Origin: Marinomonas colpomeniae
GTDB taxonomy: Bacteria > Pseudomonadota > Gammaproteobacteria > Pseudomonadales > Marinomonadaceae
Length of the DNA stretch: 64,000 nt
Reading direction: 5' to 3'
Assembly: GCF_014803385.1 (NCBI RefSeq)
Contig: NZ_JACYFC010000001.1
Span: 330,136-394,135, forward strand
In this document: positions 10,019-19,053 of the stretch, in pieces
Layout: the number at the start of each line of letters is the position of its first letter
Numbering within the stretch: position 1 is the stretch's first letter
Translations under genes and position numbers: made by a program
Notes under the pieces: generated by a model
What the model was told of the DNA's origin: nothing
Database searches by the model: none
The model's input: only the letters and a program-made list of their open reading frames with translations

Positions 10019-11575
10019 ATGTCAGCATTTAAAATAGAATCTTGTTTTGGGGCTGATATCAATGTCGGGTATTTCAATTTAGACGAGATACTCGATATTA
10101 TGCAAATAAAAAAAGCAGTGCTAGATAGTAAGCGAGTTAAGAGTTTAATTGCTCTTAATGGTCGAAAAGACCGCATAGTAAGTATTGCTATGAGGCAGGT
10201 TGCTTTTGATATCCTTCGCCCTACTCTTGAATCTGCCTTCCTTCCTTATGACTCTTATCATGTTAATGATTATAAACTTTTAAATACTCGCCGAGAGCGC
10301 TTATACGATGCGCAAGAGCGATGCCTTATATTATGTATGTCTATAGCGAGTGGCCGATCGGTAAAAAGCCTTAGAAAGCTCAACCTCGAATTAAACACTA
10401 AAGAGTTGCGCAGTAAATATTCTAAAAATCAGAGTCTTTTTCGCTATTTTAGAGAAGAGCTCAATGAGCAGACAAGAGAGCACATCCTTACGTATAAATC
10501 TCGTATGGATAAGGAATCTGGAGGAGAAGGCGTTAAAAACGCTATCGATGTTGATACCTCAGAAGTAATAACAGAACAAGATGTTCCCAAAACGTCTATT
10601 GCTAAAAGGCCTCATTTAGAAAATAAACTCATTCCAACGTCATTCGATGATGAAACAGCTACAGCGCTTAAGTTATTTCAAGATGGACACTTGCTGTTGT
10701 CAGTTCAAGTAGAAAGATTCAAGCGCGGCGATCAATTAGAAGTAGTTGAGTTGATGAAGTTTTGTCGTCGTTTGGTTGAATCTCATACTCGTAATAATTT
10801 TTCCCTTATGGCAATTCGACATATTAAAGATGCGTCTTCTTATTTAGAGCAGCACGCGATGGGAATGGCTGTACTTGGGATACATTTTGCTAAAGCAATG
10901 AAATTATCGAGTGCTTATGTCGAGGTTATTTCTCTTGGTGCTTTGTTATTTGATCTAGGTAGGTTCCGATTGCCTATGGCAATGGTTACGAAAACGACCA
11001 AAATGACATCAGGCGAGTTTGATTTGTTTCGAAAACACATACAGTTTGGGGAGCAAATTTTACAAAAATGTGAAGGCATACCTAAAGCTGTGTATCAAAT
11101 GCTCTATGACCATCATGAAAAAATAGATGGATCAGGTTATCCAGAAGGTAAGCAAGATCAAGAGATATCTGTTTATGGGAAAATTGCTGCAATTGTTGAT
11201 GCTTATGATGCCATCACATCTGAGCAATCACATAAACCTTCTATAGGGCCAATATTAGCTTGTGTAAAACTCAAAAAAGAGTCAGGTTTAGCGTTTGATA
11301 AGGAACTTCTAAGTATTTTCCTTAAAAGCATTGGAACTATACCTGTTGGCTCTTGTGTTGCTTTATCTAATGGTAGAGTTGGTTTTGTATTGACTCTTAA
11401 TAAGTCTTTTCAGCCGTCTTTAATTAGACAAGTATATAGTATAACGAATAAAGCCTTTATAGAGGCCTCAGATATCGAGTTGAATAAGTCGGCAGCGTTA
11501 AGATCGGAAGTTTTTATTGAGAAAGAAATAAATCCACAGACTCTTAAGTTGCAATTTATCGATCATATTTCATAG
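10019..11575 (+). CDS. HD-GYP-type protein with a degenerate HD motif
   Basis: The 518-residue soluble protein has an unrecognised N-terminal half (about 1-200) and a C-terminal HD-GYP-like domain (about 210-440). The GYP part is intact (HHEKIDGSGYPEG, residues 365-377). The position where active phosphodiesterases have HDIGK reads FDLGR (residues 311-315), so the metal-binding His is missing while Asp remains. HD-GYP enzymes hydrolyse cyclic di-GMP; this protein may bind it without cleaving it. It starts 22 nt after flgL, suggesting cotranscription and a link between c-di-GMP and filament assembly. Its TAG stop lies at the start of a perfect octamer array. Confidence 0.8.
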   Translation: MSAFKIESCFGADINVGYFNLDEILDIMQIKKAVLDSKRVKSLIALNGRKDRIVSIAMRQVAFDILRPTLESAFLPYDSYHVNDYKLLNTRRERLYDAQERCLILCMSIASGRSVKSLRKLNLELNTKELRSKYSKNQSLFRYFREELNEQTREHILTYKSRMDKESGGEGVKNAIDVDTSEVITEQDVPKTSIAKRPHLENKLIPTSFDDETATALKLFQDGHLLLSVQVERFKRGDQLEVVELMKFCRRLVESHTRNNFSLMAIRHIKDASSYLEQHAMGMAVLGIHFAKAMKLSSAYVEVISLGALLFDLGRFRLPMAMVTKTTKMTSGEFDLFRKHIQFGEQILQKCEGIPKAVYQMLYDHHEKIDGSGYPEGKQDQEISVYGKIAAIVDAYDAITSEQSHKPSIGPILACVKLKKESGLAFDKELLSIFLKSIGTIPVGSCVALSNGRVGFVLTLNKSFQPSLIRQVYSITNKAFIEASDIELNKSAALRSEVFIEKEINPQTLKLQFIDHIS

Positions 11576-11685
11576 TTCACCAGTTCACCAGTTCACCAGT
11601 TCACCAGTTCACCAGTTCACCAGTTCACCAGTTCACCAGTTCACCAGTTCACCAGTTCACCAGTTCACCAGTTCACCAGTTCACC
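11574..11685 (+). repeat. Perfect tandem octamer array (AGTTCACC)14
   Basis: Fourteen uninterrupted identical copies of AGTTCACC occupy exactly 112 bp. The first copy begins with the AG of the TAG stop codon of the HD-GYP gene. A perfect microsatellite of this unit length is expected to slip during replication. Because it lies after the stop codon, copy-number change would alter the spacer and 3' RNA rather than the reading frame. After the array, 11686-11940 is AT-rich with no supportable gene. Confidence 0.97.
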
Positions 11686-11943
11686 TTTATCTACTTATTA
11701 ATTTCTGATTTTTACACAAAGGTGCTGCTTAATTTACTTCATTTGCTAATTAAGTTGCTTAATTCTATTTTTGAAGTGTGATTAATTTTATTTTTTTGCT
11801 TTTTTCAGAGCGAATAAAACCTCATTTCTCCCCGTTATTTGATGCGGCTTTTTTGAAAACTTTAGCGTTTCATTCAATATTTTTACTTTATTTTATTAAT
11901 ATCAATTTTTTAGGTTTTTTTGCCATTTTTTTCTCTTTTTTTT

Positions 11944-11970
11944 TAAAGTTTTTTGGCCTTAGTACGATAA
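11944..11970 (+). promoter_or_regulatory. Sigma-28 (FliA) promoter P1 of flagellin 1
   Basis: TAAAGTTT, 11 nt, then TACGATAA matches the FliA consensus TAAAGTTT-N11-GCCGATAA, with a perfect -35 and six of eight bases in the -10. It is the distal of two similar sites upstream of the flagellin gene, 90 bp before the proximal one. Confidence 0.65.
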
Positions 11971-12033
11971 CTTTGAGTAACGTTTTTTTGAGTGATTAAA
12001 AAATTAAAATCTCAAAAAATCATAAAAAAATAT

Positions 12034-12060
12034 TAAAGATAATCACATTTATGTCGATAA
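12034..12060 (+). promoter_or_regulatory. Sigma-28 (FliA) promoter P2 of flagellin 1
   Basis: TAAAG, 14 nt, then GTCGATAA reproduces the FliA geometry with seven of eight -10 bases. It leaves a 5' leader of about 70 nt before the flagellin ATG at 12140. The sequence just downstream (CGATAACTTT) is identical to that in P1, which suggests a local duplication. Confidence 0.75.
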
Positions 12061-12139
12061 CTTTAATAAGAGACAAAAACCAAATAATCAATTAAATCAA
12101 AAGGTTGTCTCGTTAAAAAACATTCTTAGGAGAGAAAAA

Positions 12140-13024
12140 ATGGCTTTATACGTAAATACTAATGTGTCCTCGCTGAATGCTCAGCGTATGCTAAATAACT
12201 CTAGTCGAGAGCTAGATACATCCTTCCAACGTTTGTCTTCTGGTAAGCGTATTAACAGCGCAGCAGATGACGCCGCAGGTCTTCAAATTTCCGACCGCTT
12301 GACCTCGCAAATTAATGGTTTGAACCAATCAGTACGAAATGCAAATGATGGTATTTCATTAGCTCAAACAGCTGAAGGTGCGTTGGATGAAACGACAAGT
12401 ATGTTGCAGCGTATGCGTACTTTATCTATTCAGTCTGCTAACGGATCAAATTCAGCGAAAGATCGGGTTGCCCTACAACAAGAAATGGCACAACTATCTC
12501 AAGAGATTAACCGTATTGCAGATACAACGACATTTGGTGGCGCTAATTTATTAGATGGTACTTACCAAGGCATTTTCCAGGTAGGTGCGGATGCTAACCA
12601 AACCATCAGTTTTACTATGGAATTTGGTGGTGCGAATAATTCTATTGATTATCAGGCGAATAATGGCTTTACCATGTCGGGTTTATCGAATCAGGCCTCA
12701 TCTCAAGTAAGTGAAACGACAGCCTCCGTGTCAACAGCTGTTAATGCACAGAGTATGATTGCGATTATCGACTCTATGATTGCCGCAGTGGATTATAAAC
12801 GGGCTGAGTTGGGTGCAATACAAAACCGTTTCAGCTCCACTATTACTAACTTGAGTAATATCTCTGAAAACGTATCTGCCGCTCGAGCGCGAGTGCGTGA
12901 TGCCGATTTTGCGCAAGAGACGGCTAACCTGACTAGTACGCAAATTTTGCAACAGGCGAGTAGTACTATTCTTTCGCAAGCGAATCAGCGTCCACAGACG
13001 GCACTGTCTCTATTAGGTAATTAA
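12140..13024 (+). CDS. fliC: Flagellin (first copy)
   Basis: This is a filament subunit of 294 residues. The conserved N-terminal D0/D1 domain ([20 protein letters not shown], then [20 protein letters not shown]) and C-terminal domain ([20 protein letters not shown], then [16 protein letters not shown]) are both complete. The central variable region is short (about residues 140-210), so the outer D2/D3 domains are minimal. A GGAGAG ribosome site precedes the ATG. The gene has its own sigma-28 promoters and terminator and is probably transcribed alone. A second, closely related flagellin lies 3 kb downstream; which one is the major filament protein cannot be told from sequence. Confidence 0.98.
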
Positions 13025-13130
13025 TTTAAAAACAGAATGATGTAAAGCAGTGGCAGACAGCTGCTTATTCAAACTCTTCGAGTGTTTCTCGGAATATAGG
13101 CTACTTCTCTCTCCTAGAGGTGCCTTTTCA

Positions 13131-13162
13131 GCCGGGTGGATTTTTTCACCCGGCATTTTTTT
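13131..13162 (+). terminator. Rho-independent terminator after flagellin 1
   Basis: A perfect stem GCCGGGTG / CACCCGGC with a T-rich loop is followed by ATTTTTTT. It is GC-rich in an AT-rich setting, about 105 nt after the flagellin stop, and should end the monocistronic flagellin mRNA. Confidence 0.93.
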
Positions 13163-13246
13163 ACCTAAATATTGGTTTTCAACCGTTTTAGGGCGTTTTT
13201 TAGGAGAAAAATTTTGTTCGAGGCTTATATCAAAGGGGGTTATAGG

Positions 13247-13639
13247 ATGAATGTAATAAGTATTAGTAGTCGTATTTTATCTCTGACTGACTTTGATAGT
13301 GGCTTTTTTTCTGTAGCTAAAAAAGCTCCGATTTTAAAGCTTCGTATGCAAAGACAAAATGCTTTATCTAATGTCGTATTTTTATTTCAATTCTTGTTCC
13401 TTTCTCAATTTTCGAACCGAGTCTTTAGGTTGGATAAAAACCACATCTTATTACAGTGGCAGTTTTTTGCTACTCCTAGTCTTTTTGTTAACAACATTAA
13501 TGTAAAGGTGTCTGGTAAAAAAAATCTTGGTTTGAAGAGGGGGGCGTTTTTGAATAGAGGAAGCCTCAGCCCTGAACGATTGAATTCAGACGATATACAT
13601 GTACTTCAAAACTACTTGAGTTTCTATACAGAAGTTTAA
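13247..13639 (+). CDS. Hypothetical protein, unrecognised
   Basis: This is an open frame of about 130 codons from ATG 13247, preceded by AAGGGGG at about 9 nt. The product is basic with a hydrophobic stretch (VVFLFQFLFLSQF, about residues 42-54) and no motif I recognise. An alternative in-frame start at 13172 would add 25 residues with no obvious ribosome site. It lies just after the flagellin 1 terminator and before the decayed repeat array, in DNA with few other open frames, so it may be a chance or decaying frame. No function is proposed. Confidence 0.3.
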   Translation: MNVISISSRILSLTDFDSGFFSVAKKAPILKLRMQRQNALSNVVFLFQFLFLSQFSNRVFRLDKNHILLQWQFFATPSLFVNNINVKVSGKKNLGLKRGAFLNRGSLSPERLNSDDIHVLQNYLSFYTEV

Positions 13640-13731
13640 TACGTAGTTTTTTATGCATTGACGAAAAATTTTTGATTTCCGGCCATGTTCTTAGTCGAGA
13701 TCCTTTTCATTGAGAAATAAAGATTTGGAAT

Positions 13732-15700
13732 GACAAATTATTAATAGCTTATTGATGGATAACCCAAGTAGAAAAACGATAACTGTATGTTTTTCTTTGG
13801 ATTAAAGAGCGTCGTATTAGAGTTTTTTTACATTGTTTCGAAGAACATGTGTATTGGGATGGATTATTGCGTTTAGAAAAAATTTCTGTTTATACGGGAC
13901 GTACCTTGATACCTCATATTTTTTCTTGGGTCTCTACTGTGTATAGGTGTTGGGTTATCGCTTATGGTTTCGAATTTGTTCGACAGATATGGATCATGAC
14001 GACGATTCGAACTGATTTTTAAGGTGACAGATTTTACAAACTAGAAGAGGTTTTTGGGAACACATTCCTATCGAAATGCTATTTGTTATTAAGGGGCGTG
14101 GATCAGAAATCAAATGGTCGAAATATAAAATAATTTAGAAAGCGAAGTGATTCGGAGTAGATGCTATCAGCAGAGTATTGATGGATAAACAAAACAGTAA
14201 AACAGTAAAACAGTAAAACGGTAAAACGGTAAAGGCATGTTTGTCTTTGGTCTAAAACGCATTGCATATGTGAGTTCTCAGGCATATTTGAAAAATATGT
14301 GTATTGGGGTGAATCAATGTACTTAGAAGAATCTGTTGTTTATACGGAGCGAACTTTGACGTCTTATTTTTTTACATCACTACAAAGTATAGGTATTGGA
14401 TTGGAGTTTATTCGTTGGACATGAGTCATTGTGGCGACTCAAGAAAATTATGTGTAGTGATGGAACTTATAACAGGACGAAGTATTTTTGCGTGCTTTTT
14501 TATCGAAGTGTTATTGATCGGTAGACACTGAGTGTTAGAGGCCAGGTACCTGAAATACATAAATGATTTAGAAATTAAGTGATTGGAGTGCGGATTATCA
14601 ATAGCGCATTTGTGGATAAGCGAAATAGTAGAGCGTTAATAACATATTTGGCTTTGGACTAAAGTCTAATTTATGCGTGATTACTCAAAAACGTTCGAAA
14701 AATATACGAATTCGAGTGAATTAATCTGTTTAGAAAAAGCTGCCTGTTGTACAGGGGGCTCTTGGGCATTATTTTCTGTTTTTTGAATAGCTACAAAGTA
14801 TCGACGTCGTAGTTATTTATGTTTTGGAATTTATTTATCGGTTTAAGAATGCCGTGACTTAGAAATTAGGTGGTTTGAAATATGGGCGATCAGCCAAGTA
14901 TTGATGCATAAGCAAAACAGTAAAGTGCTAAGAGTGTATGTAGCTCTGGACGAAAGTGCAGTTTATGCATGGTTACTTAAGTGCGTTTGAAAAATATATG
15001 TACTTGAATGAATCGATAAGTTGAGACAAGTCTGTTGTTTATACGGAGCGAATCTTGGTGCTTTTTACATCGCTAAATATAACAAGTTTAAGTTGTTGCT
15101 TATGGTTTGGGGTTTATTTATTGGTTTAAAAACGCAAAGACTTTGAAGCTGAGTAATTGAGCTTAGGTGAATTTGGACGGATGAATGTATTCAAAAAAAT
15201 TGTTTTTTTTGTAGTGGACGACTTTTAGCATCTGATTTTTTGCTTTTCGAATAGCCATAAAACGCAGATGTACGATTGCTTATTATGATTTGGAAATTCT
15301 CAAATGAGTTATGTCTCATGATGAAGGTGCTAATTAATAGTATTCAGGTCATGCAATTTTTCAAAAGAAGAGACTGAATTTGGTTAGCGCTTCTTTTTCT
15401 TGAAGTGTTACGGATTAGAAATTAAGTGTTTTAAACGTCGGTTTGTAGTTGAAATTTGTGTTGGGAAATAGGTTTCTATTTTGGAAATGATTTTAGCTCA
15501 GCATTTGTTGACTCTTAAGGCCTGTTTTATGTCGACTGCTTTGCAGTTTATTTTTTAGTTTAGAGCGCTTAATTGTCATTAAAGCTACGTGGCATTTTTT
15601 TAAAGAATTGAGGCAAAAAGCGGATGTTTTTTGCTGTGAGGAAGGCTTTGTTTTGCCTTTTTGGGGTATATGAATTTAAGAGCTGTATTTGATTTGTTGG
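13732..15700 (+). repeat. Array of about six degenerate direct repeats between the flagellin genes
   Basis: Unit starts, recognised by variants of TTTAGAAATTAAGTGATTGG, fall near 13732, 14134, 14567, 14858, 15142 and 15414. Most units keep the same order of diverged blocks: TATTGATGGATAA, then CTTTGGACTAAAG, then AATATGTGTATTGGG with GAATCAAT, then TGTTGTTTATACGGAGCGAA, then CTTATGGTTTGG, then TTTATTTATCGG. Units are about 400-430 bp in the first two copies and about 270-290 bp later, largely because a distal block ending in TATCGAAGTGTTA is missing from the third and fourth units. No long open frame runs through any unit. The last unit fades out before the flagellin 2 promoter. Confidence 0.75.
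14191..14230 (+). repeat. Short tandem octamer array AAAAC(A/G)GT x5
   Basis: Three copies of AAAACAGT are followed by two copies of AAAACGGT. The array lies inside the second unit of the larger repeat array. The fourth unit has a single AAAACAGT-like element at the matching place, so the octamer seems to have expanded locally. Confidence 0.9.
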
Positions 15701-15943
15701 TGAGGTTGTTTATTCGGTCAGTTGTTTGTCTATTTAATGTGACCATTTAGCAAATTTGAAGCAGTATTCTCTATTTTTTATGCTTAATAAGTGTTGGTTT
15801 AACGGAAATAAGCACTTTTTAGTAAAAAAAGTAGAAAAAAATTTAATTGTTTTAAATTTAATTAAAACAATTACTTAGGCAATTATTTGCCATATAAAAG
15901 GAAGGTTTTTTCCGACTGTCGGTAATTATTTTCCTTAATTGAC

Positions 15944-15970
15944 TAAAGGTTTTCAAATTCTTGTCGAAAA
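15944..15970 (+). promoter_or_regulatory. Sigma-28 (FliA) promoter of flagellin 2
   Basis: TAAAG, 14 nt, then GTCGAAAA has the same spacing as the two sites before flagellin 1. It lies 54 nt before the flagellin 2 ATG. Upstream, 15701-15943 holds only AT-rich sequence in which I see no gene. Confidence 0.7.
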
Positions 15971-16023
15971 CCTTAATACGATCTGCTTACTTGCAGGATT
16001 TAATGAAAATTTAGGAGGCTATG

Positions 16024-16908
16024 ATGGCTCTTTACGTAAATACAAATACTTCATCTTTAAACGCACAGCGCTCTTTGATGAACTCTAGTAATGATTTGGA
16101 TACCTCTTACCAGCGTTTGTCTTCTGGTCAGCGTATTAATAGCGCTAGAGATGATGCTGCAGGTCTTCAAATTTCGGATCGATTAACATCTCAGGTTAAT
16201 GGCCTTAACCAATCAGTACGTAACGCCAATGATGGTATTTCTGTAGCTCAAACTGCAGAGGGTGCTTTGGATGAAACAACAAGTATGTTGCAACGTATGC
16301 GTACTTTGTCTATCCAGTCTGCTAACGGATCGAACTCTGATAGTGACCGTGTTGCGCTACAACAAGAAATTAAACAGTTATCTACAGAGATTAACCGTAT
16401 TGCTGATATCACGACTTTTGGTGGTGAAAAACTATTAGCAGGTGAATATGAAGGTATTTTCCAAGTAGGTGCTGATTCAAACCAGACAATCAGTTTCAGT
16501 ATGACTACTGGTGGTGCGTCTAACTCAATTGATTTTGCTGGTAATGCTGGTTTCACAATGTCTGGTCTGTCAAGTAGTTCAGCAACAGCTCAAGTGAGTG
16601 TAACAAGTGCTTCAGTATCTTCTGTTGCTAACGCTCAGAGCATGATTGATATTATTGATACTATGATTAGCGCAGTTGACTCTAAACGTGCTGATTTGGG
16701 TGCGATTCAAAACCGTTTTGGTTCTTCTATCAGTAACTTGAGTAACATTTCTGAAAACGTATCTGCTGCACGTTCTCGTGTTCGTGATGCTGACTTTGCT
16801 GAAGAAACTGCGAAACTAACAAGTACGCAAATTCTTCAACAAGCAAGTTCATCTATTTTGTCTCAAGCAAACCAACGTCCACAAACCGCTTTGTCTCTAC
16901 TAGGCTAA
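16024..16908 (+). CDS. fliC: Flagellin (second copy)
   Basis: This second filament subunit has 294 residues and is closely similar along its length to the first. The N-terminus is [20 protein letters not shown] and the C-terminus [16 protein letters not shown]. Differences concentrate in the central region (about 120-200). Two ATGs are adjacent; I chose 16024 because AGGAGG is 5 nt before it but only 2 nt before 16021, and because flagellins start MALYVN. It leads a fliC-flaG-fliD-fliS-fliT-maf run, whereas the first copy stands alone. Confidence 0.98.
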
Positions 16909-16931
16909 GCACTATAGTGGTCAGGAATTAG

Positions 16932-16964
16932 AGCTGGGGCTTACTTTTGTAGTCTCAGCTTTTG
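16932..16964 (+). terminator. Terminator or attenuator after flagellin 2
   Basis: The stem AGCTGGGGCT / AGTCTCAGCT (two G-T pairs) around a 10-nt-class loop is followed by a weak T-rich tract. It lies between flagellin 2 and flaG, so partial read-through would give excess flagellin mRNA over the accessory genes. Confidence 0.6.
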
Positions 16965-16985
16965 TTTATTCGGAGGGAATTTTGG

Positions 16986-17408
16986 ATGTCTATTAATACA
17001 AATGATTTTTCTAAACAAAACATAAACTATTCTGTAAACACAGATCATAGAACTGCTGAAGAATTTACTGCATTACGTCAAGCGAATGCTAAAGTTGTTC
17101 AAAATATGACCGATACGGCTAAGTCAGATTCAGAGAATAAAGACTCTCGATCTTTTGCTTCTTCAGTCAAAATTGAACCTCGTGAAATTGAGGCGGCAAA
17201 TGAAAAAATGTCTCAGCTAAATGTTCAGTTAACCTTTGAAATGACAGAAGAACGAGAGCAGAATATAGTAAAAGTTTTAGATCAGACTACAGGTGATGTT
17301 GTTCGTCAAATTCCGACGGAAGACTTTCTTAAAATGTCTGAGAGAATTGATGCTATTATGGATCAGCTTACTGATATCAAAGGAACTTTGGTAAATAGCG
17401 AGGCTTGA
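16986..17408 (+). CDS. flaG: FlaG family protein
   Basis: This small protein (140 residues) of the FlaG/YvyC family affects filament length in polar flagella. The family core is at residues about 75-135: NEKMSQLNVQLTFEMTEERE, then VKVLDQTTGDVVRQIPTEDF with LKMSERIDAI. The N-terminal half is polar and probably disordered. I chose ATG 16986 with GGAGG 9 nt upstream; an in-frame TTG at 16962 overlaps the terminator stem. It lies between flagellin and fliD, as in Vibrio and Pseudomonas. Confidence 0.9.
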   Translation: MSINTNDFSKQNINYSVNTDHRTAEEFTALRQANAKVVQNMTDTAKSDSENKDSRSFASSVKIEPREIEAANEKMSQLNVQLTFEMTEEREQNIVKVLDQTTGDVVRQIPTEDFLKMSERIDAIMDQLTDIKGTLVNSEA

Positions 17409-17448
17409 TTAGTTAATAGGTAATGTAGAAACTCTAGGAGATAAAGTT

Positions 17449-19053
17449 ATGTCTATAGGCTCATTAGGTATCGGATCTGGAATGGATCTCGAATCCCTTG
17501 TTAAAGAAATGGTGAGCGCACAAAAAGACGCAAAAGTTAGACTTTATCAAACCCAAATTAATGAGTACGAAGCAGAATTATCTGCATTAGGTCAAGTTGG
17601 GTCGGCCATAGATAATTTTAAGTACTCTGTTCAATCGTTGAATGACGAAGACCTTTTTACTGGGCGTGATGCAAAAATTGCCCAAAAAGAAGGTGAAGAG
17701 GTTATGTCTATTAACACGGACAATACAGCTTCAAATGGCTCTTATTCTATTGATATTAATCAAATAGCAAAAGGCAGCCGTGTTATGTCCGCACCTGGTG
17801 TATTTTCCTCTGCAGACGATGTCATAACAAAAAAAAATGACACTCTTATCTTCAAAGCAGGCGACAATGAATTTTCAATAGACGTTACTGCTGGTACCAC
17901 CTTATCCGAACTTCGCAACTTAATTAATACGTCAGAAGACAATTTTGGTGTATCTGCTAATTTAGTTGATGATGGTAGCGGAAATTTATTTTTCACGGCA
18001 ACATCTTCTATTGAAGGCGCGGGAAATACACTAAGAATTATCAACTCTTCTCCAATCGACAAAACTGATGAACTTCTTGATGATAAAGAAGAAACACCCA
18101 TCGAAGATACCCTTGCAGTTGATGAGTCAGAAGAAATAGATGAATTAGATTTGGCCGGTGACGATGTTGATTTTGCTAATGATGGCCCAATACCTGAAGA
18201 TGATGTTAAAGAAGCGGCAGAAGCAGCCGTTAAAGAAACAATAGCAGACGAAGATGATTCTTCAGATGAAGAAAATGAAAGTGCTGCTTTTAATGGTAGC
18301 GCTACAGGTTTAAACAGTGTTTCAACCGAGGGTATGTTTGCTGGACTATATACACCACTAGGTGAGCAAGCCCGTGATGCTGTTATCACAGTGGATGGTA
18401 TTCAAATTCGAAATGAAACCAACACATTTGATAATGCGGTAGCTGGGTTATCTATTGAAGCATTGGCTGTTACGGACAAAACGACAAAAGTTGATGTCAG
18501 TTTTGATCAAAAAACTGTGCAGGAAACTATTAAAGAATTTATTGGATCATACAATGATCTGCTTAACACGTTTCAACAAAGTACAGGTAAGAACTCTGCG
18601 TTAAGCGGCAATAGTATGATTCGTAACTTACAGTCATCTTTGTCTAGCCAGCTTATGGCTGGTCGCAGTGATACTGGCGTTTTCACCTCTGTTTTTGATC
18701 TTGGAGTAAAGATGGATAACAAAGGTGTATTGAGTTTTGATAGTGCTAAATTTGATAATGCTATGAAAAAGGGTTATAGCGATGTTGTTTCTCTAATGAC
18801 TGGCGAAAAAGGTTTAGCTCAGTCTTTAGAAGATTTATTGGATAACTATACAGGTTCTTCAGGAATGACGAATTCATTAAGGGACTCTGTTAGTGGCTCG
18901 ATAGATAGTACAGAATTAAGATTAGAAGCCTATGAAGACCGTATGGCGCGTTATGAGGAATCTCTTCGAGATAAGTTCACGGGATTAGATTCTCGTTTGG
19001 CGAATATGAATGCTCAAGGCAATTATTTAAATACAGTATTATCACGACTGTAA
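17449..19053 (+). CDS. fliD: Flagellar filament cap protein FliD (HAP2) with an acidic insertion
   Basis: FliD forms the cap that inserts flagellin at the filament tip. The 534-residue product starts SLGIGSGMDLESLVKEMV, the standard FliD N-terminus, and has the FliD C-terminal coiled-coil domain (about 320-534). It is longer than typical (about 450-480). The surplus is an extremely acidic, low-complexity stretch at residues about 203-279, in which about 34 of roughly 75 residues are Asp or Glu. It interrupts the exposed middle domain. GGAG precedes the ATG. The neighbours flaG upstream and fliS downstream are the usual ones. Confidence 0.96.
   Translation: MSIGSLGIGSGMDLESLVKEMVSAQKDAKVRLYQTQINEYEAELSALGQVGSAIDNFKYSVQSLNDEDLFTGRDAKIAQKEGEEVMSINTDNTASNGSYSIDINQIAKGSRVMSAPGVFSSADDVITKKNDTLIFKAGDNEFSIDVTAGTTLSELRNLINTSEDNFGVSANLVDDGSGNLFFTATSSIEGAGNTLRIINSSPIDKTDELLDDKEETPIEDTLAVDESEEIDELDLAGDDVDFANDGPIPEDDVKEAAEAAVKETIADEDDSSDEENESAAFNGSATGLNSVSTEGMFAGLYTPLGEQARDAVITVDGIQIRNETNTFDNAVAGLSIEALAVTDKTTKVDVSFDQKTVQETIKEFIGSYNDLLNTFQQSTGKNSALSGNSMIRNLQSSLSSQLMAGRSDTGVFTSVFDLGVKMDNKGVLSFDSAKFDNAMKKGYSDVVSLMTGEKGLAQSLEDLLDNYTGSSGMTNSLRDSVSGSIDSTELRLEAYEDRMARYEESLRDKFTGLDSRLANMNAQGNYLNTVLSRL

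Follow-up and report, generated by a model that had tools for sequence, protein, structure and literature searches.

In the 64,000-nucleotide stretch of Marinomonas colpomeniae DNA analysed here (the window), two flagellin genes lie on the plus strand, flaA at 12140-13024 (294 aa) and flaB at 16021-16908 (295 aa), both encoding proteins with the Pfam domains Flagellin_N and Flagellin_C, and they are separated by a spacer of 2,996 bp. A strong intrinsic terminator of flaA, consisting of a 10-pair stem followed by a T run, is located on the plus strand at 13131-13164 and is kept in many relatives; the segment containing it shows 75-96% identity in the covering matches from relatives, and the fold z-score of 13025-13175 is -5.2. 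At the other end of the spacer, the region upstream of flaB (15775-16020, plus strand), presumed to hold its promoter and leader, is conserved at 72-85% identity to relatives in the main matches. An open frame of 130 aa was found at 13247-13639, between flaA and the repeats described below; it matches no Pfam family, its best E value in the 28 relative loci searched was 0.44, and it is probably a chance frame, not a gene. Upstream of flaA, fourteen perfect copies of AGTTCACC occupy 11574-11685, beginning at the stop codon of an HD-domain gene (10019-11575). Three exact copies of AGTTCACC in a row were detected in none of the 47 other Marinomonas genomes searched, and the run is probably a fast-changing microsatellite.

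An earlier note on this DNA, made from the letters alone, had described about six direct repeats between the two flagellin genes. Self-comparison of the spacer confirmed the repeats, with off-diagonal blastn matches down to E = 9e-40 and a best self Smith-Waterman score of 104, compared with at most 24 in 12 dinucleotide shuffles. Four copies on the plus strand are solid: unit 1 (13716-14132, 417 bp; delimited by self-blastn and profile alignment), unit 2 (14133-14565, 433 bp), unit 3 (14566-14856, 291 bp), and unit 4 (14857-15140, 284 bp). They are homologous along their length, with a mean pairwise identity of 63% over 259 ungapped aligned columns, and the extra length of units 1 and 2 consists of additional 3' sequence. 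Unit 5 (15141-15412, plus strand) is truncated; it is without roughly the first 130 model positions and matches the second half of the unit only (model positions 134-293, self-blastn E 1.6e-4). A possible unit 6 (15413-15700, plus strand) is doubtful, as it shows short blocks only, its profile match came from a profile that included unit 6, and it has no independent self-blastn match at E < 1e-3. The unit starts are thus spaced by 417, 433, 291, 284, and 272 bp, close to the earlier values of 402, 433, 291, 284, and 272. These results demonstrate that the array is real and consists of several head-to-tail copies above chance likeness. Tandem Repeats Finder (TRF) did not report it as such, the copies being just 63% alike. 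Within unit 2, a microsatellite of AAAACAGT in 5.4 copies was observed at 14191-14233; a 43-base stretch of another Marinomonas genome (G030:C1:237625-237667) is 93% identical to it, probably by chance of simple sequence.

The sequence blocks that the note had singled out as common to every copy did not prove to be special. At up to three mismatches some copies miss some blocks, and the blocks are no better kept than the rest of the unit. The conserved columns of units 1-4 are not clustered (variance in 12-column windows, p = 0.16; longest invariant run 4, p = 0.99), indicating that the blocks are stretches left alike by chance in a repeat that has worn evenly. Divergence of the copies is even along the unit, as expected of unconstrained duplicates.

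The array is non-coding in all six frames: over 13640-15783 each frame contains 31-54 stops in 714 codons, where 46-57 are expected from base composition, and the longest stop-free stretch is 79 codons. A single decayed gene, or decayed extra flagellin copies, might be thought of in a region lying between two neighbouring flagellin genes of the same orientation, but such an origin is scarcely credible. Stops are at or slightly below the composition expectation, no flagellin-like match was found by tblastn in the spacers of relatives among the matches listed (the best four pieces per query and locus), and other non-coding repeats stand at the same place in relatives. Furthermore, a search of the window's own genome with the array DNA gave no strong match elsewhere (best E 0.023) and none to either flagellin gene, and self-comparison gave none to the flaB upstream region, which indicates that the duplicated DNA is spacer. 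The proposal that the array is a fossil of tandem duplication is therefore supported as far as duplication is concerned, with the correction that unconstrained spacer DNA, and not the flagellin genes, was duplicated.

The spacer was then compared across 48 Marinomonas genomes including that of the window (G-numbers label genomes and L-numbers loci). The best 21 named loci with related flagellins all belong to Marinomonas, and flagellin matches were obtained in 47 of the 48 genomes, the remaining one being G041 (77% complete). Both flagellins lie in one locus in 45 genomes, which form the set for spacer length and for the flagellin tree. Twenty of these have short spacers of 348-872 bp, and 25 form a long set with spacers of 881-3,602 bp, apart from G016 at 630 bp. 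All FlaB proteins of the long set fall in one clade (support 96.1/96), so that a spacer of at least 881 bp is found in 24 of the 25 genomes of this clade with G016 as the exception, while the FlaA proteins of the long set are not resolved as one group (41/16). Two further genomes were counted with the long set and are absent from the tree: G030, in which flaB lies near a contig start (at least 952 bp of spacer in the contig) and the second flagellin was not found in the assembly, and G046 (M. ushuaiensis), whose two flagellins lie on two contigs (at least 3,199 bp). M. rhodophyticola (L068), with a spacer of 1,656 bp, is a further long-spacer Marinomonas outside these 27.

Clear internal repeats were detected by self Smith-Waterman comparison against shuffles in 15 of the 27 long-spacer genomes (the window, G001, G006, G012, G017, G018, G024, G028, G030, G031, G032, G038, G039, G040, and G046); the signal was marginal in G034, G045, and G047 and not seen in the other nine. 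None of the 20 short spacers has clear repeats (largest excess over the shuffle maximum, two score units), with only 131-505 bp testable in each and little room for such units. The period measured for eleven arrays in relatives ranges from 147 to 293 bp: 147-148 bp in G018 and G028, 172 bp in G032 and G039, 212-237 bp in G006, G017, G024, G031, and G038, 266 bp in G012, and 293 bp in G046. The repeat of G040 comprises two copies about 1 kb apart. The ten arrays present in one piece are separated from flaA by 359-901 bp and from flaB by 373-606 bp. Short matches aside, the units are common to groups of species only; the close pair G018 and G028 has 7 and 5 copies. Since G028, G032, G039, and G040 are single-contig genomes, assembly faults are unlikely for these repeats. 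In M. ushuaiensis (L052 and L053), 293-bp units have a mean pairwise identity of 94%, and the assembly is interrupted between flaA and flaB by this young array. In six of ten arrays tested in relatives, some parts of the unit are better conserved than others (p < 0.001 in G012 and G018, 0.005 in G028, 0.0095 in G039, 0.014 in G038, and 0.026 in G046); such unevenness was not found in G017, G024, G031, and G032. Open frames with an ATG start reach at most 130 aa in the 26 spacers listed, and stop-free frames of at least 65 aa, the size compared, differ between species.

As a control, 464 kb (400 kb of one relative plus the window) were searched with TRF, and no array of period 80 or more was found; this speaks for younger arrays only, since TRF is blind to arrays as worn as that of the window. 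The 400 kb of the control relative contain eight ORF-free stretches of at least 800 bp. Among 72 loci compared, gaps between neighbouring flagellin genes outside Marinomonas are shorter than 0.9 kb with four exceptions: those of L110, L111, and L113 contain genes, and those of L082, 0.9 and 1.9 kb long, are without open frames of 80 aa. TRF found no array of period 50 or more in nine flagellin gaps tested, M. rhodophyticola L068 included. The 1.9-kb gap of L082 (Anaerobiospirillum sp. NML120449, 8850-10749), likewise without a TRF array, lies between two minus-strand flagellin genes.

We next asked how fast the spacer changes. In six species pairs, the divergence of the middle of the spacer is about that of four-fold sites of neighbouring non-flagellin genes, with spacer and four-fold identities of 0.80 and 0.82 (G024/G038), 0.73 and 0.71 (G005/G036), 0.69 and 0.68 (G024/G017), 0.64 and 0.58 (G012/G001), 0.58 and 0.50 (G024/G031), and 0.49 and 0.40 (G026/G031). 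Reversed partners yield 0.42-0.46 identity from the aligner alone, so that at least some of the spacer excess in the distant pairs is due to the aligner. On this scale, and assuming similar rates, the duplications in the window may be about as old as the split of G012 and G001, the copies being 63% identical and the spacers of that pair 0.64. Searches for the window units in relatives, which the earlier note had proposed along with the own-genome search, gave nothing better than E 0.16 outside the window with nhmmer and nothing clear with Smith-Waterman in 12 sequences, where scores were marginal against the shuffled maximum (22 against 18 in G018, 22 against 21 in G046pB, and 23 against 22 in G005). 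Four-fold identity between the window and the five relatives compared is 0.33-0.43, a level at which neutral units are unrecognisable elsewhere; the failed search was therefore to be expected and is uninformative on the origin of the units.

The note had also offered a set of non-coding RNAs. Tandem genes for small RNAs or peptides, comparable to the Ldr or Sib loci and now decayed in the window, would agree with units of 150-290 bp, which resemble small-RNA genes, and with the young, near-identical units of some relatives. Terminator-like sites are somewhat in excess, with 128 against 94 in shuffles on the plus strand and 13 against 6.5 on the minus strand over 26 sequences, and with 4 against 1.5 expected in 13000-16100 of the window, one of them the flaA terminator. 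In contrast, stable or covarying secondary structure was found neither in single units nor in their consensus. Fold z-scores over 16 units average -0.27 and -0.46 on the two strands, compared with -5.2 for the flaA terminator, the doubtful unit 6 giving -2.8 on the reverse strand. The RNAalifold consensus of units 1-4 reaches -7.4 kcal/mol, an energy matched or bettered by 69 of 100 column shuffles; pair counts on this consensus fold exceed simple shuffles, but the fold is derived from those same four rows. No Rfam gathering score was reached in 11500-17500 or in 11 relative loci, a sub-threshold match to CRISPR-DR2 (E 1.8) lying outside the array, and promoter-like sites show no excess in the window spacer (7 against 10.4 expected). 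Together with the differing open frames and GGA counts at expectation, these results argue against the RNA proposal, and we consider small RNAs or peptides very unlikely.

Two further candidates were considered, of which the first was rejected. A sponge for CsrA through GGA motifs does not agree with the counts in the window (GGA 35 against 35.0 expected, ANGGA 9 against 9.8); across 24 spacers only G033 exceeds the GGA expectation, by about 2 sd, and the ANGGA count lies about 4.5 sd above expectation in G033 and 1-2 sd above it in G028 and G018. A special composition of the spacers was suggested by the GC skew of the window spacer, 0.31, and by a sense-strand skew of at least 0.20 in the middle of the spacer in 23 of 26 sequences (the others being G039 at 0.15, G016 at 0.07, and G025 at -0.12). 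Leading-strand bias may explain the skew, as the four-fold sites of minus-strand genes, read on the strand of the spacer, have the same value, although plus-strand genes (0.11) and other intergenic DNA in the window (0.08) give less. No sigma-28-like or sigma-54-like sites were found within the units of the window; GCCGATA occurs four times on the reverse strand of G031.

In contrast to the evenly worn units of the window, the spacers of some relatives share a 20-bp core, GGCACAGYTGCGTCTTTTTT, which recurs in ten species on the sense strand of the flagellins, about once per unit where units are recognisable. At up to four mismatches, 38 core sites were found in these ten species, and single sites in G018, G028, and G046 bring the number to 41 in 13 of 29 sequences scanned, compared with none in reverse-complement and none in reversed controls. 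The empty controls indicate that the core sites are real. With a leave-one-out position weight matrix (PWM), the sites score 12-39 in the ten species, of which four are close relatives, so that leaving one out does not give full independence; the control maximum is 11.2 (125,054 positions scored with the full PWM). Reverse-strand matches exceed 11.2 in G038 (18.4), G017 (11.8), and G005 (14.2), those in G038 and G017 perhaps from partial palindromy. Exact core sites number 15, in 5 of the 48 genomes, all within the flagellin spacer and in gene orientation, whereas cores with two mismatches outside the spacer are about as frequent as the reversed-pattern control. G026 and G034 have no clearly detectable repeat, yet their cores follow one another at intervals of 163-259 bp; in G001 the intervals are 166-270 bp. 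The persistence of cores without a detectable repeat suggests that the core is probably under constraint in G026 and G034. Flanks of distant pairs are 0.25-0.34 identical except for 0.41 in the bin beside the core, with 0.28 for random sequence; they are about random from ten bases upstream of the core outwards and directly downstream of it. Two such pairs have four-fold identities of 0.35 and 0.37. Identity of the core itself is inflated in this comparison, as the four-mismatch cut-off sets a floor on it.

Judged from these alignments, the spacer is probably not wholly inert, the core being conserved where the flanks have become random. Each unit might deliver one putative protein-bound site, GGCACAGYTGCGTCTTTTTT, with the rest as filler, and in the species of the window the core would have been lost or altered until unrecognisable. 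The site counts, the PWM scores, the confinement of exact cores to the spacer, and the persistence of cores between random flanks all point to such an array of functional DNA. On the other hand, a clear core is absent from 17 of the 27 long-spacer genomes, including the window, where the PWM recognises none; matches in M. ushuaiensis are weak, and G045 reaches 10.1. The inflated core identity and the kinship of four of the ten species also weaken the case, and the imperfect palindrome of the core is kept only slightly better than random changes would keep it (4.38 against 3.78 pairs). A role that depends on sequence is likely in those spacers alone that retain the core, and as an account of the window array this reading is unlikely. 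A nucleoid protein, a topoisomerase, or a flagellar regulator is a conceivable binder; to our knowledge, no protein is known to bind the core. An array of terminators was also considered and rejected: the core resembles a weak hairpin followed by a U run, but the excess of terminator-like sites over shuffles is modest, as given above, and the ten core stretches folded at -1.7 to -7.8 kcal/mol.

The length of the spacer is related to the flagellins themselves. Amino-acid identity of FlaA and FlaB falls with spacer length (Spearman -0.77, 45 genomes), a trend that rests on essentially one evolutionary change, so that the 45 genomes are not 45 tests. Over conserved columns the two proteins are 85-95% alike in short-spacer genomes and 74-86% alike in the long set, and they form an exclusive pair in the tree in 10 of 20 short-spacer genomes and in none of 25 long-spacer genomes. 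Four-fold identity within the own pair is low in both sets and differs little between them, at 0.49 with short and 0.41 with long spacers (Mann-Whitney p = 0.001, kinship ignored). Tandem flagellins of Alteromonadales are reported to evolve in concert, and independent duplication is given there as another possible explanation (PMC6053082). These observations would fit a spacer that acts as a recombination insulator, in which length and non-homology reduce gene conversion or deletion and let FlaA and FlaB specialise, arrays being kept since they keep the gap long. However, the silent-site test of gene conversion speaks largely against this. At silent sites, FlaA and FlaB of one genome are about as alike as unrelated pairs, and this holds for most short-spacer genomes too. 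FlaA is closer at four-fold sites to its own FlaB than to any other in only 5 of 20 short-spacer genomes (0 of 25 with long spacers), and four-fold identity shows no trend with spacer length within either group. Ten short-spacer genomes have non-exclusive pairs, three of them at about 350 bp (G007, G011, and G025), whereas G022 at 872 bp is exclusive. Given one main transition and several exceptions, an insulating role is not claimed, and we regard it as improbable. For the note's third proposal, a recombination spacer, these data give weak support.

Two other features of the flagellins were observed. Ten long-spacer genomes (G001, G006, G012, G018, G027, G028, G032, G039, G040, and G045) have FlaA enlarged to about 440-455 aa, three of these being incomplete at the edge of the locus, and FlaB enlarged to 343-370 aa; in the flagellin tree, the enlarged FlaA and the enlarged FlaB each group together with good support. 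Elsewhere in the genome, 13 of the 20 short-spacer genomes (G003, G004, G008, G009, G010, G013, G014, G015, G019, G020, G021, G022, and G042) encode an additional, distant flagellin (38-43% identity), perhaps belonging to a lateral flagellar system, and none was found in long-spacer genomes at E 1e-30.

Taken together, we favour, with a probability of roughly 0.6, the reading that the window array stems from tandem duplication, long ago, of non-coding DNA within the long spacer that separates the two flagellin genes. Arrays would arise in the spacer by slippage or unequal exchange, be made uniform for a while, and then wear away through point mutations that accumulate at the neutral rate; the succession from young to old arrays suggests that the window represents a late stage of this cycle. 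The spacer itself, rather than its sequence, seems to be kept by the group; it tolerates and may need its length, perhaps because it holds apart two strongly expressed, diverging flagellin genes. Where the core is under constraint, the array probably also does something sequence-specific. Certain data do not sit easily with purely unconstrained decay. Functionless spacers of 1-3 kb are expected to shrink in bacteria, yet long spacers are kept in 24 of 25 genomes of the clade; the core is conserved in ten species, six of ten arrays are unevenly conserved along their units, and the GC skew of the spacer exceeds that of plus-strand genes and other intergenic DNA. A bolder model, which we hold only tentatively and think unlikely as a whole, is that of a locus-bound bacterial satellite: the spacer would repeatedly build arrays to present spaced, orientation-fixed 20-bp cores to a candidate protein between the two strongly expressed genes, everything but core and length would drift and make arrays look unrelated between species, and the lineage of the window would have lost or replaced its core.

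The earlier note knew of no described element of this form. We found no paper that brings together flagellin, intergenic, tandem repeats, and Marinomonas, and in the broader literature no title or beginning of an abstract among the matches listed describes such an array. Bacterial intergenic minisatellite or VNTR loci are likewise head-to-tail non-coding copies at a fixed place, but the Marinomonas units are long (147-293 bp in relatives, 272-433 bp in the window), arrays differing in sequence occupy the same spacer in many species of the genus, and one family of them keeps a core. Eukaryotic ribosomal-DNA spacers also carry fast-changing tandem sub-repeats between tandem, strongly expressed genes, with position kept and sequence not, whereas here the genes are a bacterial protein-gene pair and promoter-like sites are no more frequent than expected. 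Ldr (long direct repeat) and Sib type I toxin-antitoxin arrays are tandem intergenic units of a few hundred bp as well, but the Marinomonas arrays are without structured RNA and without a conserved small frame among the frames of at least 65 aa compared. REP and BIME elements are tandem extragenic units with a short, partly palindromic core, and BIME-2 arrays are reported to bind DNA gyrase (PMC2817692). In contrast to a palindromic core dispersed genome-wide in more than 100 copies, exact Marinomonas cores occur only at the flagellin spacer, the copies run in the same direction, palindromy is weak, and the window units have no strong match elsewhere in their genome. In Shewanella, flaA similarly lies upstream of a neighbouring flaB and the two have separate promoters and are individually regulated; the excerpt of that paper describes no repeat array there (PMC6299084).

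One spacer stayed long across a clade, and repeats were apparently made and lost in it repeatedly beside two diverged flagellins; bacterial intergenic DNA, by comparison, is usually short and purged when useless. Its young, middle-aged, and decayed arrays provide a natural series for how bacterial satellites form and die, and the conserved core offers a handle for seeking a putative binding partner. If the spacer does control flagellin divergence, the length of non-coding DNA would be linked to gene specialisation.
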